Part shown: one piece after another, positions 6,272 to 19,975 of the stretch
Numbering within the stretch: position 1 is the stretch's first letter
Layout: each line of letters starts with the position of its first letter
DNA from: Actinomycetota bacterium
Lineage (GTDB): Bacteria; Actinomycetota; Acidimicrobiia; Acidimicrobiales; Ilumatobacteraceae
Length of the DNA stretch: 64,000 nucleotides
Direction of reading: 5' to 3'
Assembly: GCA_009702045.1 (NCBI GenBank)
Contig: WLIV01000003.1
Location: forward strand, 1 to 64,000
Made by a program: the position numbers and the translations under genes
The notes under the pieces: generated by a model
Told to the model about the DNA's origin: nothing
Seen by the model: the letters and a program-made list of their open reading frames with translations, nothing else
Database searches by the model: none

Positions 6272-7438
6272 ATGAGTTCGCTGCTCGAGTCAGCTGAACA
6301 GATCCTCCTCACACCGGCCCAGTTCATCACGGCTGTGCGCGAACATGAACAACAGGCAGCAGTGTTGGCCCTCGCCCTACGCCGCTTGGAAACCTCCGGC
6401 GAATACGCGGCCGAAGGTGCGGTGTCGATCGGTTCCTGGCTACGCGACCAGTGCCGCATGACCAGCCGACAAGCCGCCGCGATCATCAGCCACGGGCGTT
6501 TCCTCGATCGCTACTCGGCCGTCGCCGAAGCCGAGCTCTCCGGTGTGTTGTCGCAAGGTCAAGTCGCTGTGCTGCGCCGACGCTGCCCCTCCACGCTGCG
6601 GCCAATCCTCGACGAGCAACAACACGAGATGGTCGCCAACCTGTCCGTGCGCACCATCACCGAGACCGAACTGTTCTGCCACCTGTGGCAACTACGCGCC
6701 GAAGCCGAAGTTGCCGAGACCGCACCGCCGGCCGAACCCAACCGGGCGTTGATCATGGACCGTGCCGACGACGGTGCCTTCGTCGGCAGGTTCGTGCTCG
6801 ACGAAGCCGGCGGCATCCAACTGGAACAAGCATTGACCACCGCCGACACCTGGGAAGGCGCCGACGACACCCGTACCCGTCCCCAACGCATGGCCGACGC
6901 ATTGCACGACATCGCCGCGTTCTTCAACCTCAACCACGACCGCAACGAAACACCGCGCCGCCGCCCACACCTCGACCTGTCGATGGACCTGTCCACGTTG
7001 AACGGCTACATGGAAGCCGTCACCGGCGCCGGCCGACTCCTCCACCACTGCACCACCGAAACCCTGTTGTGCGACTGCATCCTGCACAAGGTCATCCGCG
7101 ACGGCGAAACCCTGCCCACCAGCTACGGCCGCGCCACCTACACCGTGCCCGCCAACCTGTTTCGCCACATGGCCGCCCGCGACGGCGGCTGCCGCTACCC
7201 CGGCTGCGAACGCCCCGTCACCTACACCGAAGGCCACCACATCCACTACTGGGAAAACGGCGGCCCTACCGATCTCGACAATCTGATGTTGTTCTGCAAC
7301 CGCCACCACCACCTCGTCCACCGCCAGGACATCCAGGTGAAGCTGCTGCCGAACGCCGATGCCCACTTCACCTGGCCCGACGGCAGCGAACGCACCACCC
7401 ACCCCCGCGGCGCACCGCCCCGACGATCCGGGCCCTAA
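6272..7438 (+). CDS. DUF222 domain-containing HNH endonuclease-like protein
   Basis: The 388-residue protein has an N-terminal helical DUF222 (13E12-repeat) domain over roughly residues 1-290. A C-terminal HNH nuclease motif follows: CRYPGC near residue 307, then TEGHHIHYWENGGPTDLDNLMLFCNRHHHLVH, which carries the conserved His, Asn and His and the zinc cysteines. Such proteins occur in multiple copies in actinobacteria; their role is unproven, with DNA cleavage or mobility proposed. The start at 6272 fits the promoter at 6236-6264. A GTG at 6254 would lie inside the -10 and is rejected. The gene is isolated between unrelated units. Confidence 0.85.
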   Translation: MSSLLESAEQILLTPAQFITAVREHEQQAAVLALALRRLETSGEYAAEGAVSIGSWLRDQCRMTSRQAAAIISHGRFLDRYSAVAEAELSGVLSQGQVAVLRRRCPSTLRPILDEQQHEMVANLSVRTITETELFCHLWQLRAEAEVAETAPPAEPNRALIMDRADDGAFVGRFVLDEAGGIQLEQALTTADTWEGADDTRTRPQRMADALHDIAAFFNLNHDRNETPRRRPHLDLSMDLSTLNGYMEAVTGAGRLLHHCTTETLLCDCILHKVIRDGETLPTSYGRATYTVPANLFRHMAARDGGCRYPGCERPVTYTEGHHIHYWENGGPTDLDNLMLFCNRHHHLVHRQDIQVKLLPNADAHFTWPDGSERTTHPRGAPPRRSGP

Positions 7439-7509
7439 CGGGCCCTCCCCTCTCCTGATGAGTGCAGCGACCTGCACATAGTCACCACCCTTGCACTGCA
7501 GGTGAGGGG

Positions 7510-7515
7510 TAGCCT
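7510..7515 (+). promoter_or_regulatory. -10-like TAGCCT, 7 bases before ATG 7523
   Basis: TAGCCT followed by 7 bases and ATG supports the 7523 start rather than the upstream GTG at 7502. No convincing -35 lies 17 bases upstream. Confidence 0.5.
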
Positions 7516-7522
7516 GGCCCGC

Positions 7523-8764
7523 ATGGCAGGGGAGCTGATTTACGCATTTCGCATCATGCGCCTCCCACTGCTCGACGCGGGCGGCGCGCCCATCGGGCGC
7601 CTCGACGACATCGTGCTGATTCCTGGAGCTCGCGGAGGCACACCGCGCGTGCTCGGCTTCGCCGCCACCAGCCAGCGTCGGCGGATTTTCGTCAACGCCG
7701 GCCGCATCGCCACGCTTGACGGCGATGGTGCTCGGCTACGCAGCTGGGATATCGACCTCAACCCGTTCAAGCCTCGCCCCGGCGAGATCTTGATCGGCCG
7801 CGACCTGATCGACAAGAAGGTCGGCGACGAGACCGTCAGCGACATCGCCCTGCGCCCCGCCACCGATGGCAAGCAGAACTGGTGGGAGCCCGCGAAAGTG
7901 CGGCTCACCCAGCGCAGCGCGTTGCGGCGGCGCCCCAGCTACCGCCTCCTCGACGTCGACGACCTGCCCGGCCTGTTCCACACGGTCGACGGCACCGAGA
8001 TGGCCGCCGAGGCCGCCCGCCTGCGCGATATGCACCCCAGCGACGTGGCTGGCGTGGTGCGAGCCCTGCCGCTCACGCAGCGCAAACTCCTCGCCGAGGC
8101 GATGGACGACGAACGCCTGGCCGACCTGCTGGAAGAGTTGCCCGAGGCCGAACAGTTGCGCATCATCGAGGGCCTCGACATCGACCGCATGGTGTCGGTG
8201 CTCGAGGAGATGGAGTACGACGACCTCGCCGACCTGTTGGCCGAGATGCCCGGCGAGCAGCGCACCCGAGTGCTCGACGCGATGGATGAGGAGGACGCCG
8301 ATGTCATGCGGCGCCTGCTCTCCTACGAAGAGGGCACCGCCGGTGCGTTGATGACCCCCGACATCATCATCCTCGGCGCCAACTCCACAGTCGCCGAAGC
8401 GCTCGCTCAGATCCGCGACCCCGAGTGGTTGGTCAGCATCGCCGCCCAGGTGTTCGTGGTGCAACCGCCATTCAAGTCGCCAACGGGTCAGTACCTCGGC
8501 GTCGTGCACTTCCAACGTCTGCTGCGCGAGCCGCCGGCCATGGAACTCGGTCGCTGCGTGGAGCAAGAGCCCACCATCACGCCCGACATCCTCGAGCGGG
8601 AAGTTGCCGAGCGGTTGGCCAGCTACAACCTGTTGTCGCTCGGCGTGTGCGACGAAGCCGGGCGGTTGCTCGGAGCCATCACGGTTGACGACGTGCTCGA
8701 CCGCACATTGCCCACCGGTTGGCGTCAGCGCAGGCGGGTGAACACCGGGACGGTGTCGCGATGA
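7523..8764 (+). CDS. PRC-barrel/MgtE N-terminal/CBS domain protein without a transporter domain
   Basis: The 413-residue protein begins with a PRC-barrel-like segment (RLPLLDAGGAPIGRLDDIV). The MgtE N-terminal superhelix follows at about 150-280, with acidic repeats such as LADLLEELPEAEQLRIIEGL and LADLLAEMPGEQ. Next come TAGALMTPD and a CBS domain pair (about 280-395). The membrane pore domain of MgtE magnesium transporters is absent, so this is likely a soluble Mg2+- or nucleotide-sensing protein, as in mycobacteria. It is coupled by an ATGA overlap to a DUF1003 membrane protein gene, which suggests the two act together at the membrane. Confidence 0.8.
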   Translation: MAGELIYAFRIMRLPLLDAGGAPIGRLDDIVLIPGARGGTPRVLGFAATSQRRRIFVNAGRIATLDGDGARLRSWDIDLNPFKPRPGEILIGRDLIDKKVGDETVSDIALRPATDGKQNWWEPAKVRLTQRSALRRRPSYRLLDVDDLPGLFHTVDGTEMAAEAARLRDMHPSDVAGVVRALPLTQRKLLAEAMDDERLADLLEELPEAEQLRIIEGLDIDRMVSVLEEMEYDDLADLLAEMPGEQRTRVLDAMDEEDADVMRRLLSYEEGTAGALMTPDIIILGANSTVAEALAQIRDPEWLVSIAAQVFVVQPPFKSPTGQYLGVVHFQRLLREPPAMELGRCVEQEPTITPDILEREVAERLASYNLLSLGVCDEAGRLLGAITVDDVLDRTLPTGWRQRRRVNTGTVSR

Positions 8765-15532: not shown

Positions 15533-17491
15533 TCAGAAGTCCAGGTTTCGTACGTCGCGTGCGTTGGTGGTGATGAACTGCTTGCGCAGATCGACGTCGT
15601 CGCCCATCAGCACACTGGTGATCTCGTCGGCGATCGCGGCCTCCTCGACCGTGATCTGCAACAGGGTGCGAGTGGTGACGTCCATGGTGGTGGGCTTCAA
15701 CTCCTGCCAGTCCATTTCGCCGAGACCCTTCAACCGGTTGAAGTCGTTCTTGTGGTTGGGGTGCGACTCGAGGAAGCGGTTCTTCGCGTGCTCATCCTTC
15801 AGGTAGATCTTCTCCTTGCCGACCAGCGTGGAGAACAACGGCGGTTGTGCGATGTACACATACCCCCGCTCGACGAGTGCCCGCATCTGGCGGAAGAAGA
15901 ACGTGAGCAACAGCGTGCGGATGTGGCTGCCGTCGACATCGGCATCGCACAGGATGATGACCTTGTGGTAGCGAGCCTTCCCGCCATCGAACTCCTCGCC
16001 CACGCCGCCGCCGATGGCGGTGATGAGTGCCTGGATCTCGGTGTTCTTCAGCATCTTGTCGAGACGGGCACGCTCGACGTTGAGGATCTTGCCGCGGATA
16101 GGGAGCAACGCCTGTGTGCGCGGATCGCGAGCGTTGAGCGCCGAGCCACCGGCCGAGTCGCCCTCGACGATGAACAACTCTGATTCCTCAGGGTTGCCGC
16201 TGCTGCAGTCCTTCAACTTGTCGGGCATGCCGGCGCCGGCGAGTGCGGTCTTGCGGCGGATGGCGTTGCGGGCGTTCTTCGCGGCCAGACGGGCTTGCGC
16301 GGCGGAGAGTGCCTTTTTCACCAACTTGTTGGCCTCGGTGGGGTTCTCTTCCAGCCACTCGGCAAGGCGTTCGTTGGTGGCCTTCTGCACGAAACTGCGC
16401 ATCGGCACGTTGCCCAGCTTGGCCTTGGTCTGACCCTCGAACTGCGGTTCGCGCAACTTCACCGAGACGATGGCGGTGATGCCTTCGCGGATGTCTTCGC
16501 CGAGCAGGTTGTCTTCTTTTTCCTTCAGCAGGTTCTTCGACCGGGCGTACTTGTTGACCACGCTGGTGAGCGCCGTCTTGAAACCCTCCACGTGCATACC
16601 ACCCTCGATGGTGGAGATGCCGTTGGCGTAGCCGTGGATGCCCTCGTAGTAGCCGGTGTTCCACTGGATTGCGATGTCGAGTGTCTGGCCACCCTCGGTG
16701 TCTTCGTCCTCGAAGTGAGCGACCTTCAAGAACAAGGCTTCCTTCGACGCGTTGAGGTGCTTGACGAAGTCGACGATGCCGCCCTTGTACTGGAACGTGA
16801 CATCTTGTTCCTTGCCCTCGCGCTCGTCGCGAAAGACGATCTCGAGGCCCTTGTTGAGGAACGCCATCGTCTGCAAACGCTCGAGCACGGTGCGCGACAC
16901 GAACTCGGTGCCCTCGGCGATGAACACCGTGGGATCCGGCCAGAACGTGACCGTGGTGCCGCTTTGGCGACCGCGCGCCGGGGTGGCGCCGATCTCTTGG
17001 ATCTTGCCCTGCGGCTTGCCGCCCTGGGCGTACTCCTGCTGGTAGCGCTTGCCCAGCTTGTCGATCTCGATGAGCAGACGCTCGGACAGCGCGTTGACCA
17101 CGCTGACGCCCACGCCGTGGAGGCCACCGGAGACCTTGTAGCCCTCGCCGCCGAACTTGCCGCCGGCATGCAACACGGTGAGCACGACCTCGGCTGCACT
17201 CTTACCCTTGTGCGGACCGGAGGGGTACGGATCGACCGGGATGCCACGGCCGTTGTCGTCGACGCGGCAGCCGCCGCCCTCCAACAACGTGACCCCGATG
17301 CGGGTGCAGAAACCCGCCATCGCCTCGTCGACCGAGTTGTCGACGACCTCCCAGATCAGGTGGTGAAGACCCGCCAGACCCGTGGAGCCGATGTACATGC
17401 CAGGGCGTTTTCTGACCGGGTCGAGACCCTCCAGCACCTGAATATCTTTGGCACCGTAATCGGCACTCGGTTGTTTGGTGTCAGACGACAC
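15533..17491 (-). CDS. gyrB: DNA gyrase subunit B
   Basis: The protein (652 residues from GTG 17491) has the GHKL ATPase domain with VLEGLDPVRKRPGMYIG and EVVDNSVDEAMAGF. The TOPRIM domain follows, with EGDSAGGSA and LCDADVDGSHIRTLLL, then the GyrA-interaction C-terminus. The frame is open to GTG 17551. The 17491 start has GAGG at 5-base spacing, and a -10-like TAAAAT lies between the two candidates, which favours the shorter form. The gene is followed immediately by gyrA. Confidence 0.97.
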   Translation of the reverse strand: MSSDTKQPSADYGAKDIQVLEGLDPVRKRPGMYIGSTGLAGLHHLIWEVVDNSVDEAMAGFCTRIGVTLLEGGGCRVDDNGRGIPVDPYPSGPHKGKSAAEVVLTVLHAGGKFGGEGYKVSGGLHGVGVSVVNALSERLLIEIDKLGKRYQQEYAQGGKPQGKIQEIGATPARGRQSGTTVTFWPDPTVFIAEGTEFVSRTVLERLQTMAFLNKGLEIVFRDEREGKEQDVTFQYKGGIVDFVKHLNASKEALFLKVAHFEDEDTEGGQTLDIAIQWNTGYYEGIHGYANGISTIEGGMHVEGFKTALTSVVNKYARSKNLLKEKEDNLLGEDIREGITAIVSVKLREPQFEGQTKAKLGNVPMRSFVQKATNERLAEWLEENPTEANKLVKKALSAAQARLAAKNARNAIRRKTALAGAGMPDKLKDCSSGNPEESELFIVEGDSAGGSALNARDPRTQALLPIRGKILNVERARLDKMLKNTEIQALITAIGGGVGEEFDGGKARYHKVIILCDADVDGSHIRTLLLTFFFRQMRALVERGYVYIAQPPLFSTLVGKEKIYLKDEHAKNRFLESHPNHKNDFNRLKGLGEMDWQELKPTTMDVTTRTLLQITVEEAAIADEITSVLMGDDVDLRKQFITTNARDVRNLDF

Positions 17492-17534
17492 GCGCACCTC
17501 GATCGTTTCGGGGGAAAACAGGAGTTGACCTGGG

Positions 17535-17540
17535 ATTTTA
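17535..17540 (-). promoter_or_regulatory. -10-like TAAAAT of gyrBA
   Basis: TAAAAT on the minus strand would start transcription near 17528 and leave a leader of about 37 bases before the GAGG/GTG of gyrB. The -35 is not recognisable. The remainder of the 17492-17686 gap shows no gene. Confidence 0.5.
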
Positions 17541-17686
17541 CGGGGCGACACGTGGACTGGACCCGTGCTGGCCCAAGGCCCGGCAGCTGTCGTCGCAAGT
17601 ACCTGACAGCCTACCCGAGGGGTGTCACAAAGAGGTGGAGGGGCGAGGGACGGAGCAGAGGTGGGCGATGGGCTAGAACTGCCGGA

Positions 17687-18781
17687 ATGAAGGTCGCCGT
17701 GTATGCCATCGCATTGAACGAGGAGGCCTTCGTCGCGCGCTTCATGGCCACCGCCAGCGAAGCCGATCTAGTACTCGTCGCCGACACTGGCAGCACCGAC
17801 GCAACGGTGGCCGCGTTACAGCGCGCGGGGGCCGTCGTGCACCACATCACCGTCTCGCCATGGCGCTTCGACGATGCCCGCAATGCCTCGCTCGCGCTCA
17901 TCCCGGCCGACGTCGACGTGTGCGTCACGGTCGACCTCGACGAGGTGCTGTCCCCTGGTTGGCGCGCCCTGCTGGAGGCAGAATGGGGCGACGCCACACG
18001 CGGTCGCTACCTGTACACCTGGAGCCACCACAGCGACGGCACACCGGCCGTGTCCTTCATGACGGACCGCATCCACGCCCGGCGCGGGTACCGCTGGCGC
18101 AACCCGTGCCACGAGACGCTGTACGCCGATCGCATCGATGAGCGGTACTGCGAACTCAGCCTGGAGTTGCATCACTGGCCCGACCCCGACAAGCCGCGCA
18201 GCCAGTATCTGCCACTGTTACGCGTCGCTGCCGAGGAACAACCCCACGACAGCCGCGCGGCGCACTACCTTGGCCGCGAGTTGATGTTCTACGGCCACTG
18301 GCAAGCAGCGATCGACGAGTTGCGCCGCCATCTCGAGTTGCCCTCCAGCGTGTGGGCACCCGAGCGGGCCGCCTCCATGCGGTTCATCGGCCGCTGTCAC
18401 CGTCGCCTCGGCCTCGATGACGACGCATTGACCTGGTTCCGTGCCGCCACCGAGACATCGCCCGACACGCGCGAGCCGTGGATCGAGTTGGCGCAGATCT
18501 GCCACGACCAACAGCGCTGGCACGAGTGCTACGACGCAGCGCAGCAAGCGCTGGGCATCACCGAACGGCCCACGATCTACATCAACGACCCGGTGGCGTG
18601 GAGCGAACGCGGCCACGATCTCGCCAGTGTCGCTGCGTGGCGTCTCGGTCTGGCGGACGAAGCACTGCTCCATGCGCTTGCGGCGCAGGAGATGGCACCA
18701 GACGATGCCCGCATCGCCGAGAACATCACCTTCTATCGTTCAGCCACAGCATCTATCGACACGCCGGAACAGCACGACTAG
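17687..18781 (+). CDS. Family 2 glycosyltransferase with C-terminal TPR-like repeats
   Basis: The 364-residue protein starts with a GT-A fold: VYAIALNEEAFVARF, LVLVADTGSTDATV and the DXD-like VTVDLDEVL near residue 86. A helical tail from about 200 contains TPR-like units (AAHYLGRELMFYGHWQAAIDEL; DDALTWFRAATETSPDTREPWIELAQ). Proteins of this pattern are often annotated as SPBc2-type or TPR-glycosyltransferases; the acceptor is unknown. It diverges from gyrB and precedes the collagen-like protein gene by 44 bases. That protein would be a plausible target, but this is only inference. Confidence 0.8.
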   Translation: MKVAVYAIALNEEAFVARFMATASEADLVLVADTGSTDATVAALQRAGAVVHHITVSPWRFDDARNASLALIPADVDVCVTVDLDEVLSPGWRALLEAEWGDATRGRYLYTWSHHSDGTPAVSFMTDRIHARRGYRWRNPCHETLYADRIDERYCELSLELHHWPDPDKPRSQYLPLLRVAAEEQPHDSRAAHYLGRELMFYGHWQAAIDELRRHLELPSSVWAPERAASMRFIGRCHRRLGLDDDALTWFRAATETSPDTREPWIELAQICHDQQRWHECYDAAQQALGITERPTIYINDPVAWSERGHDLASVAAWRLGLADEALLHALAAQEMAPDDARIAENITFYRSATASIDTPEQHD

Positions 18782-18825: not shown

Positions 18826-19647
18826 ATGCGTCATCGTCGTCACCTCGTCGCCATGGGCGCGACCGGACTAGTCACACTCATTGCCCCCGCAGTGGGTGCC
18901 CACGCTGGTGCACCGCGCCCGGCGGTCACGGGTACCACCACATGCCGCACCTCCTGGGCCGAGGCCGGCCCGCAAGGTCCGCAGGGCGATCTCGGCCCCC
19001 AGGGCCCGCAGGGACCCACCGGACCCACCGGACCCACCGGCGCCGCGGGCCCGGTCGCGCCCCTCGGACCAAGTCGAGTTGCCCATCGAGTTCACGGCAC
19101 CATCGCTGATCTTCCGGCCTGCGCCGATCTGCCGGGTGTCTGCGTGGTCAACCAGGGTGGGCCCACCGGGCCCCAGGGTGACGCCGGCCCCACCGGCCCC
19201 GTTGGCCCCACCGGGTCCGCTGGCCCCACCGGCCCCACCGGACCCACCGGCGGCATCGGCGGCCCGTCCCGCAGCGCCCACCGCATCACCGCGGTCAGTT
19301 GCGCTGGCATCGCCGAAGAATGCGTCACGGTCAACACCGGCCCCACCGGGCCTTTGGGCGAGATTGGGCCCACCGGGCCCCAGGGCGACGCCGGCCCCAC
19401 CGGCCCCACCGGCCCCACCGGGCCTGTGGGCATCCTCCTCGGGTCGTCGCGCGCTACGCACCGTCCCGGCCTCCCCAGTCAAGTGACGGTCGAGGTGTCC
19501 ACGAAGTGCGTCGACGAAGCGTCGCTGGCGTTGCTGCCCGTCTCCGGCAACAACAACCAACCGTTGCTCTACGCCGCTGGTCTGGCCGTGGTGGCCGGCA
19601 GCGCCGCAACCTGGACCAGTCGGCTCCGCCGCCGCCGGGCGCGCTGA
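18826..19647 (+). CDS. Collagen-like repeat protein with a probable sortase anchor
   Basis: The 273-residue protein has a signal peptide ([21 protein letters not shown]...AHA). Three runs of Gly-X-Y triplets rich in GPT, GPQ and GDAGPTGP follow, at about 48-80, 111-147 and 171-203. Each run is followed by a short module starting with an SR-x-(A/T)HR motif and usually carrying two cysteines. The end reads LPVSG, a hydrophobic helix and an RLRRRRAR tail, the layout of an LPXTG-type sorting signal with Ser for Thr. It is therefore probably a wall-anchored surface fibre. GGAG and AGGA stretches precede the ATG. No sortase gene is in the window. Confidence 0.8.
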
Positions 19648-19651
19648 CCGC

Positions 19652-19975
19652 TCAGCGGCCGACGCGCACTTCCAACTTCTCAACGGTGGCTCCGGCCACC
19701 TCCAGCAGTCGCTGCTTCAACGTTCCTTCGAGGAACTTCAACTGCGTCGCCCAGGCCGGGTCGTCGACCTTGACCACCAAGGTCGTGCCGTCGAGCTTCA
19801 CCGGTTGTACGTGAGCGGCGACCGCCGCGCCGACGACTTCCTCCCAGCGGCCGAACACGCCGCCCATCGCTGCCGACGACGCACCACGGGAGGCGACTTC
19901 GGGCCGCAACGAACGGACCACCTCGTGCAGGCTGTCACCCAGCCGGATCGGTTCGTCACGTGCCACGAACACCAC
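19652..19975 (-). CDS. DciA-like (DUF721) protein
   Basis: The 107-residue protein is a DUF721/DciA-type domain: an N-terminal helix LGDSLHEVVRSL, FGRWEEVVG, a LDGTTLVVKVDDPAWATQLKFLE strand-helix core and a short LEVRVGR end. DciA is the ancestral loader of the DnaB helicase in bacteria that lack DnaC. The gene follows recF by 12 bases, the standard actinobacterial position (between recF and gyrB), although gyrB is separated here by two plus-strand genes. GTG is the start; nearby in-frame GTGs are alternatives. Confidence 0.88.
   Translation of the reverse strand: MVFVARDEPIRLGDSLHEVVRSLRPEVASRGASSAAMGGVFGRWEEVVGAAVAAHVQPVKLDGTTLVVKVDDPAWATQLKFLEGTLKQRLLEVAGATVEKLEVRVGR

Follow-up and report, generated by a model that had tools for sequence, protein, structure and literature searches.

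In the window, the whole stretch of 64,000 nucleotides analysed here, an open reading frame of 273 aa with an ATG start and a GGAG-type ribosome-binding site upstream encodes a collagen-like protein with a repeated Cys/Arg/His module and a candidate wall anchor (Table 1). The gene is on the other strand from a dnaA-dnaN-recF-dciA-gyrB-gyrA cluster and forms a pair with a glycosyltransferase (GT) gene, the pair being flanked by dciA and gyrB; dciA was named by Pfam, and dnaA, dnaN, recF, gyrB, and gyrA were named by eye from their translations. The orthologous locus of a sister species, in the metagenome-assembled genome (MAG) contig L001, has an identical gene order and a collagen-like protein that is 66-73% identical. 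In L112:2385-3464 (G204:C230), recF is opposite in strand to dnaA, dnaN, and dciA, as either a single-gene inversion or an assembly artefact.

Table 1. Positions of the collagen-like gene, its parts, its neighbours, and the collagen-free paralogues
Feature	Position	Strand	Remark
gyrB	15533-17551	−	flank of the gene pair
Glycosyltransferase	17687-18781	+	GT2-type N-terminal part + TPR; phage family phrog_13126; 44 bp upstream of the collagen-like gene
Collagen-like, module-bearing wall protein	18826-19647	+	273 aa; stop included
Signal peptide, about residues 1-28, ...AHAG	18826-18909	+	by reading the sequence
Cys40, invariant, start of unit 1	18943-18945	+	family alignment
Gly-X-Y run 1, residues 48-77, 10 triplets	18967-19056	+	Pfam and triplet count
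Module 1, G-P-S-R-V-A-H ... C99-x6-C106	19066-19149	+	motif reading
Gly-X-Y run 2, residues 112-144, 11 triplets	19159-19257	+	Pfam and triplet count
Module 2, G-P-S-R-S-A-H ... C159-x6-C166	19261-19329	+	motif reading
Gly-X-Y run 3, residues 172-204, 11 triplets	19339-19437	+	Pfam and triplet count
Module 3, G-S-S-R-A-T-H ... V-x-V-x3-C228	19441-19509	+	alignment and motif reading
LPVSG, sortase-motif position	19534-19548	+	variants of relatives in text
Hydrophobic segment and Arg-rich tail (RLRRRRAR)	19561-19644	+	sequence reading; Gram_pos_anchor sub-threshold
dciA	19652-19975	−	flank of the gene pair
Collagen-free paralogues, window genome (C4:26.2-27.5 kb)	L232:6209-6799 and 6945-7535
Collagen-free paralogues, two relatives	L233:4143-4724; L125:7791-9642

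The coding is real, since the comparison with the L001 orthologue gives a Ka/Ks of about 0.19/0.85 and changes of 55/42/119 by codon position. An open reading frame on the minus strand (18868-19683) was ruled out as a true gene because these changes concentrate at the third positions of the plus frame. The N-terminus is hydrophobic in all relatives, and each of the three Gly-X-Y runs is followed by one module. Pfam Collagen (PF01391) matches above its cut-off (49.2 bits vs 27.2, E 4.6e-13); X is Pro in 77% of the triplets of the window protein, and GPT makes up 45% of them.

The preliminary description, made from the sequence before this analysis, had reported Gly-X-Y runs and repeated Arg/His modules with Cys, which the open reading frame, the Pfam match, and motif reading all bear out. 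The modules are real; however, the motif SR-x-(A/T)HR given for them is too narrow. Module 1 opens with GPSRVAHR and the last module closes with KC, the wider motif is G-x-x-R-x-x-H, and a sixth Cys, Cys40, which precedes run 1, had been overlooked. Among 20000 composition shuffles of the window protein, three G..R..H were found in 1 and two C-x6-C in 84; the pattern is more than chance.

The family and its repeated module

In 222 genomes of the taxonomic family to which the window genome belongs, a search and subsequent motif reading gave thirteen members in eight genomes: one each in the window genome, G201 (on the same contig as L001), G207, G210, and G214, two in tandem in G204, two in G212, and four in G211, one of which is cut by a contig end. 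The members keep three runs, three R-x-x-H, six Cys, and an LPxTG-type tail. In the twelve aligned full proteins, Cys40, C99/C106/C159/C166, and the three Arg and three His of G-x-x-R-x-x-H are invariant, while the last Cys keeps its position in a loose alignment; the C-x6-C spacing is exact bar one case (C-x5-C). In L118:8853-10802 (G211:C56), at least three short-run members stand in tandem behind a Peptidase_M15_4 protein. In the order beyond the family, a search with the full profile led to loci that, where read, encode collagens of other kinds lacking the three-fold R-x-x-H module, and these were rejected.

LPVSG, a hydrophobic stretch, and RLRRRRAR occur here in a genome with four PF04203 sortase matches, which is the combination of a sortase-anchored (LPXTG) protein. 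Of these sortases, the best exceeds the class E cut-off; the second resembles class E but scores below the cut-off. Gram_pos_anchor falls below its cut-off in the window copy (12.4 bits vs 20). At the position of LPVSG the sister species has LPTAG, and the canonical LPETG, LPTTG, LPATG, and LPVTG are found in other relatives; therefore, the sortase reading is supported. The preliminary description had proposed a collagen-like protein of modular build, anchored to the wall by a sortase, and had let this depend on a sortase in the genome and on homologues that share the module; both were found, and the proposal is supported. The class E sortase gene (L158:6352-7452, C53 of the window genome) lies a few genes from a cluster that by eye resembles one for cytochrome c maturation (ccm), and in G204 (L161) the sortase neighbourhood is the same as in C53.

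The profile of the module was built from 24 rows. Outside the collagen members it gave weak matches in the window genome itself (at C4), in G201, and in G204, so that the profile search suggested in the preliminary description did find collagen-free paralogues; three genomes of the genus have them. Each is a short LPxTG-type protein, and the genes stand singly or in tandem (Table 1), adjoining a dnaK-like gene wherever the contig extends that far. Their order is Cys, R-x-x-H, C-x6-C, R-x-x-H, C-x6-C, R-x-x-H, Cys, without collagen; in one copy Arg replaces the third His. In place of collagen, the paralogues have a Thr-rich linker, TTTTTTTIPPT, in unit 3.

Since the collagen-free paralogues share this plan, the unit that repeats can be written Cys-[linker]-G-x-x-R-x-x-H-x(n)-Cys, with collagen filling the linker in one branch. 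The term 'repeated spacer' used earlier is thus right as to repetition but understates the module, which is the conserved core rather than a spacer and is present without collagen. The module appears to be undescribed among wall proteins, as the paralogues matched no Pfam family and no PDB chain, and NCBIfam gave weak, sub-cut-off entries. There was no convincing module match in 396 genomes of the phylum outside the family; matches of the profile there, most at about 20 bits or weaker, were treated as chance, and, the window genome aside, one short outside match reaches 25 bits (G721, E 2e-4). With collagen-containing and collagen-free three-unit scaffolds in one genome, the gain or loss of collagen is open to study.

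The linked glycosyltransferase

The GT matches phrog_13126 over its full length (residues 1-354, E 5.1e-109), and its Ka/Ks against the L001 orthologue is 0.07/0.52. Among solved structures its catalytic part matches GmaR alone, weakly, and the stronger matches are TPR proteins. At E <= 1e-30, the GT was found in four of the 222 family genomes (G000, G201, G204, and G207), always beside the collagen gene, from which it is 44, 46, 108, and 46 bp away. Both gene orders occur, the GT being first in three genomes and second in G207. The GT frame of G207 is broken (L115:7529-8524; G207:C91), by frameshifts or MAG errors. Family members in other genera occur without the GT. The GPT share of triplets is 0.27-0.45 in the five GT-linked proteins vs 0-0.14 in the seven others (Mann-Whitney p 0.006, in a comparison that is not phylogenetically independent).

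Thirty viral contigs carry relatives of the GT, nearly all of full length, with 36-53% identity. A GPT-rich collagen-like ORF lies <=3 kb from the GT in nine of these 30 viral loci vs none of 80 RecA-anchored controls, a comparison qualified by close kinship among many of the control loci and by near-duplicates among the GT loci. Actinomycetia phage DSL-LC01 carries two collagen genes, which lie upstream of its GT at a distance of a few kb. In the viral contig L168:3001-4636, a GT relative is followed at once by a GPT-rich collagen-like ORF, a pairing that resembles that of the window.

In Clostridioides difficile, the gene directly upstream of bclA3 is sgtA, whose product transfers beta-O-GlcNAc to Thr within the GPT-repeat collagen region (PMC7157674). 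The window has a pair of the same type, a GPT-rich collagen gene adjoining a glycosyltransferase gene, and by analogy the GT probably decorates the collagen rods. One proposed role of freshwater actinophage glycosyltransferases is the protection of phage DNA (PMC10202952). The link between phrog_13126 GT and GPT-rich collagen appears in cellular genomes and, separately, in viral contigs. It points to a possible substrate of such enzymes; GTs of either origin could have other targets.

In G214, the collagen gene is followed after about 110 bp by a gene for a 2OG-Fe(II) oxygenase (PF13640, PiuC/PKHD-like; L116:2078-2719, G214:C450), which in this one genome is possibly a collagen hydroxylase. 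Prolyl hydroxylation as a general feature was rejected because the oxygenase adjoins the gene in G214 alone; in G128, no collagen gene lies near the relative of this oxygenase in the 14 kb that were read.

Run lengths and alternative explanations

The window protein has 10/11/11 triplets per run and that of L001 has 13/13/13, all three runs differing in one direction; other proteins have 15/16/13, 19/20/20, 19/18/19, 9/9/9, 12/11/11, 7/7/8, and 6/5/5, and the main exception to equal runs is 15/22/23. Between proteins, run size varies from 5 to 23 triplets. The mean within-protein CV of run length is 0.059 vs 0.328 when shuffled (p 5e-5, which is optimistic because the rows are related). In unrelated three-run collagens (n=6; L138, the seventh row of that comparison, is a family member), the CV is 0.07-0.44. 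This equal-length rule, which together with the linked glycosyltransferase and the module as core goes beyond the preliminary description, imposes a strong structural constraint that can be tested. Nothing in a plain homotrimer calls for equal run lengths; they could come from even spacing of the joints along a rod, from packing that is lateral, opposed, or within one chain, or from concerted evolution at an earlier time.

Concerted evolution, that is, recombination among the three units with no structural reason behind it, is a serious if unlikely candidate for the sole cause. Runs 2 and 3 of the window protein share a stretch of 67 nt with 88% DNA identity (p 0.012), and L090 likewise has run-to-run similarity. 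However, DNA similarity between runs is above the shuffled level in 5 of 36 pairs, and the remaining 31 are no more alike than triplet-shuffled runs (p >= 0.05), yet their lengths match; modules 1 and 2 also stay distinct. Recent gene conversion thus does not account for the pattern by itself.

It is less probable that the runs arose by simple-repeat expansion and have no specific fold, forming flexible, Thr-rich, glycosylated stalks, in which case the modules alone would matter and the GT would decorate any Thr. The Thr-rich linker of the collagen-free paralogues is consistent with such stalks, and so are the runs of 5-6 triplets in some relatives, which, unmodified, would be marginal triple helices; but a Gly at strictly every third position in all collagen members, high Pro at X in many, and matched rather than random run lengths all argue for a specific fold.

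We give about the same small weight to the idea that length matching reflects contact among the three runs of a chain. The result would be either a single-chain polyproline-II (PPII) bundle or staggered chains in which run 1, run 2, and run 3 from different molecules share one triple helix. If true, this would be an architecture not known among bacterial collagen-like proteins; a wall protein of three Cys/Arg-His units, of which collagen-free versions exist, would carry it, and a glycosyltransferase that phages also possess would modify it. In its bundle form, three equal runs of one chain would lie side by side as PPII strands, closed by Cys-rich turns, with no trimer. Run lengths that match within a protein and vary several-fold between proteins, the one-directional difference between the window protein and L001, and gene conversion detectable in few run pairs favour such a bundle, and Gly-rich PPII bundles are a known fold (PMC8409303). 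However, the share of Pro at X and of GPT in the window protein is typical of triple-helical collagen. Collagen strands must moreover be parallel, and linkers of about 30 residues are too short for a return over 20-23 triplets, which rules out a parallel intramolecular triple helix, while an up-down-up layout would put odd Cys numbers at each end. The AlphaFold model of the monomer, for the window protein with L001, gives no confident residue (pLDDT 31) and favours neither the bundle nor the triple helix. Overall, the bundle appears improbable.

The preliminary description had suggested that the module may keep triple helices in register by disulfides or may bind a ligand. VKOR, a known oxidant, and DsbA-type Thioredoxin_4 were not detected in the window genome, which makes enzyme-catalysed disulfides less likely and disulfides the least certain of the features predicted here. 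The six Cys might instead be unbonded and, with R-x-x-H, bind metal, a trimer offering three His at each level; the joints would then be metal clamps, or the protein would be a surface metal collector. While this agrees with the missing oxidants and with His and Cys that are invariant in collagen members and near-invariant in collagen-free ones, no known metal-binding family was matched in Pfam or PDB, exported Cys pairs at a fixed C-x6-C spacing are more commonly disulfides, and metal binding seems as improbable as the bundle.

A proposed jointed collagen rod and its relation to known systems

From the conserved anatomy, the coding, the anchor motif of the family, the sortases of the genome, the GT linkage, and the GPT correlation, we judge it moderately probable that the protein is a sortase-anchored, O-glycosylated, jointed collagen rod, of which the trimer, the disulfides, and the glycosylation are predicted. 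The protein would be exported, cut at LPVSG, and joined to the cell wall by a sortase. Its core is three repeats of Cys-[linker]-G-x-x-R-x-x-H-(roughly 7-20 residues)-Cys, and in the collagen branch every linker holds a Gly-Pro-Thr-rich Gly-X-Y run. Three chains may wind to a triple helix in each run, and the result would be a short rod with three equal segments, two inner joints, and its base at the wall. At the joints, the C-x6-C pairs and R-x-x-H may cap the helices, fix the chain register, and/or make lateral contacts. The adjacent phage-type GT may add sugar to Thr of the GPT triplets, as SgtA does on BclA3 (PMC7157674), and such sugars would stiffen and hydrate the rod. A likely role is that of a glycosylated surface fibre for adhesion or a wall coat.

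In the one library searched, no paper joins such features for Acidimicrobiia or Actinobacteria, and the family is a genuine and apparently undescribed branch among collagen-like proteins anchored by sortase, marked by its novel module, its length rule, and a glycosyltransferase that is likely dedicated to it. With the LPXTG-anchored streptococcal adhesins Scl1/Scl2 (SclA/SclB) it shares a signal peptide, a collagen-like region, and a sortase anchor, whereas here there are three runs with Cys/R-x-x-H modules and a GT partner; the NCBIfam Scl/Lcl matches are far below their cut-offs (SclB 42.6 bits vs 325, SclA 36.1 vs 400) and are owed to the collagen part alone. FACIT collagens are animal proteins in which COL and NC regions alternate, with Cys pairs at the junctions. 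The layout of collagen runs alternating with short non-collagen Cys-pair joints is common to both, with C-x4-C in FACIT and C-x6-C in the window protein, and no homology is claimed. Snow-flea antifreeze protein and the PPII bundle of Obg also have Gly-X-X strands in one chain with loops between them, but Pro and Thr are far higher in the window protein. Interrupted collagen with LPXTG is shared with the system in PMC8968730, where such a Cys module is not described. BclA3 and SgtA of C. difficile have in common with the window pair the GPT-rich collagen and the glycosyltransferase gene directly upstream; however, BclA3 is an exosporium protein with membrane segments, whereas the window protein is a wall-anchored Cys-module protein whose partner GT is a phrog_13126 GT2-TPR.
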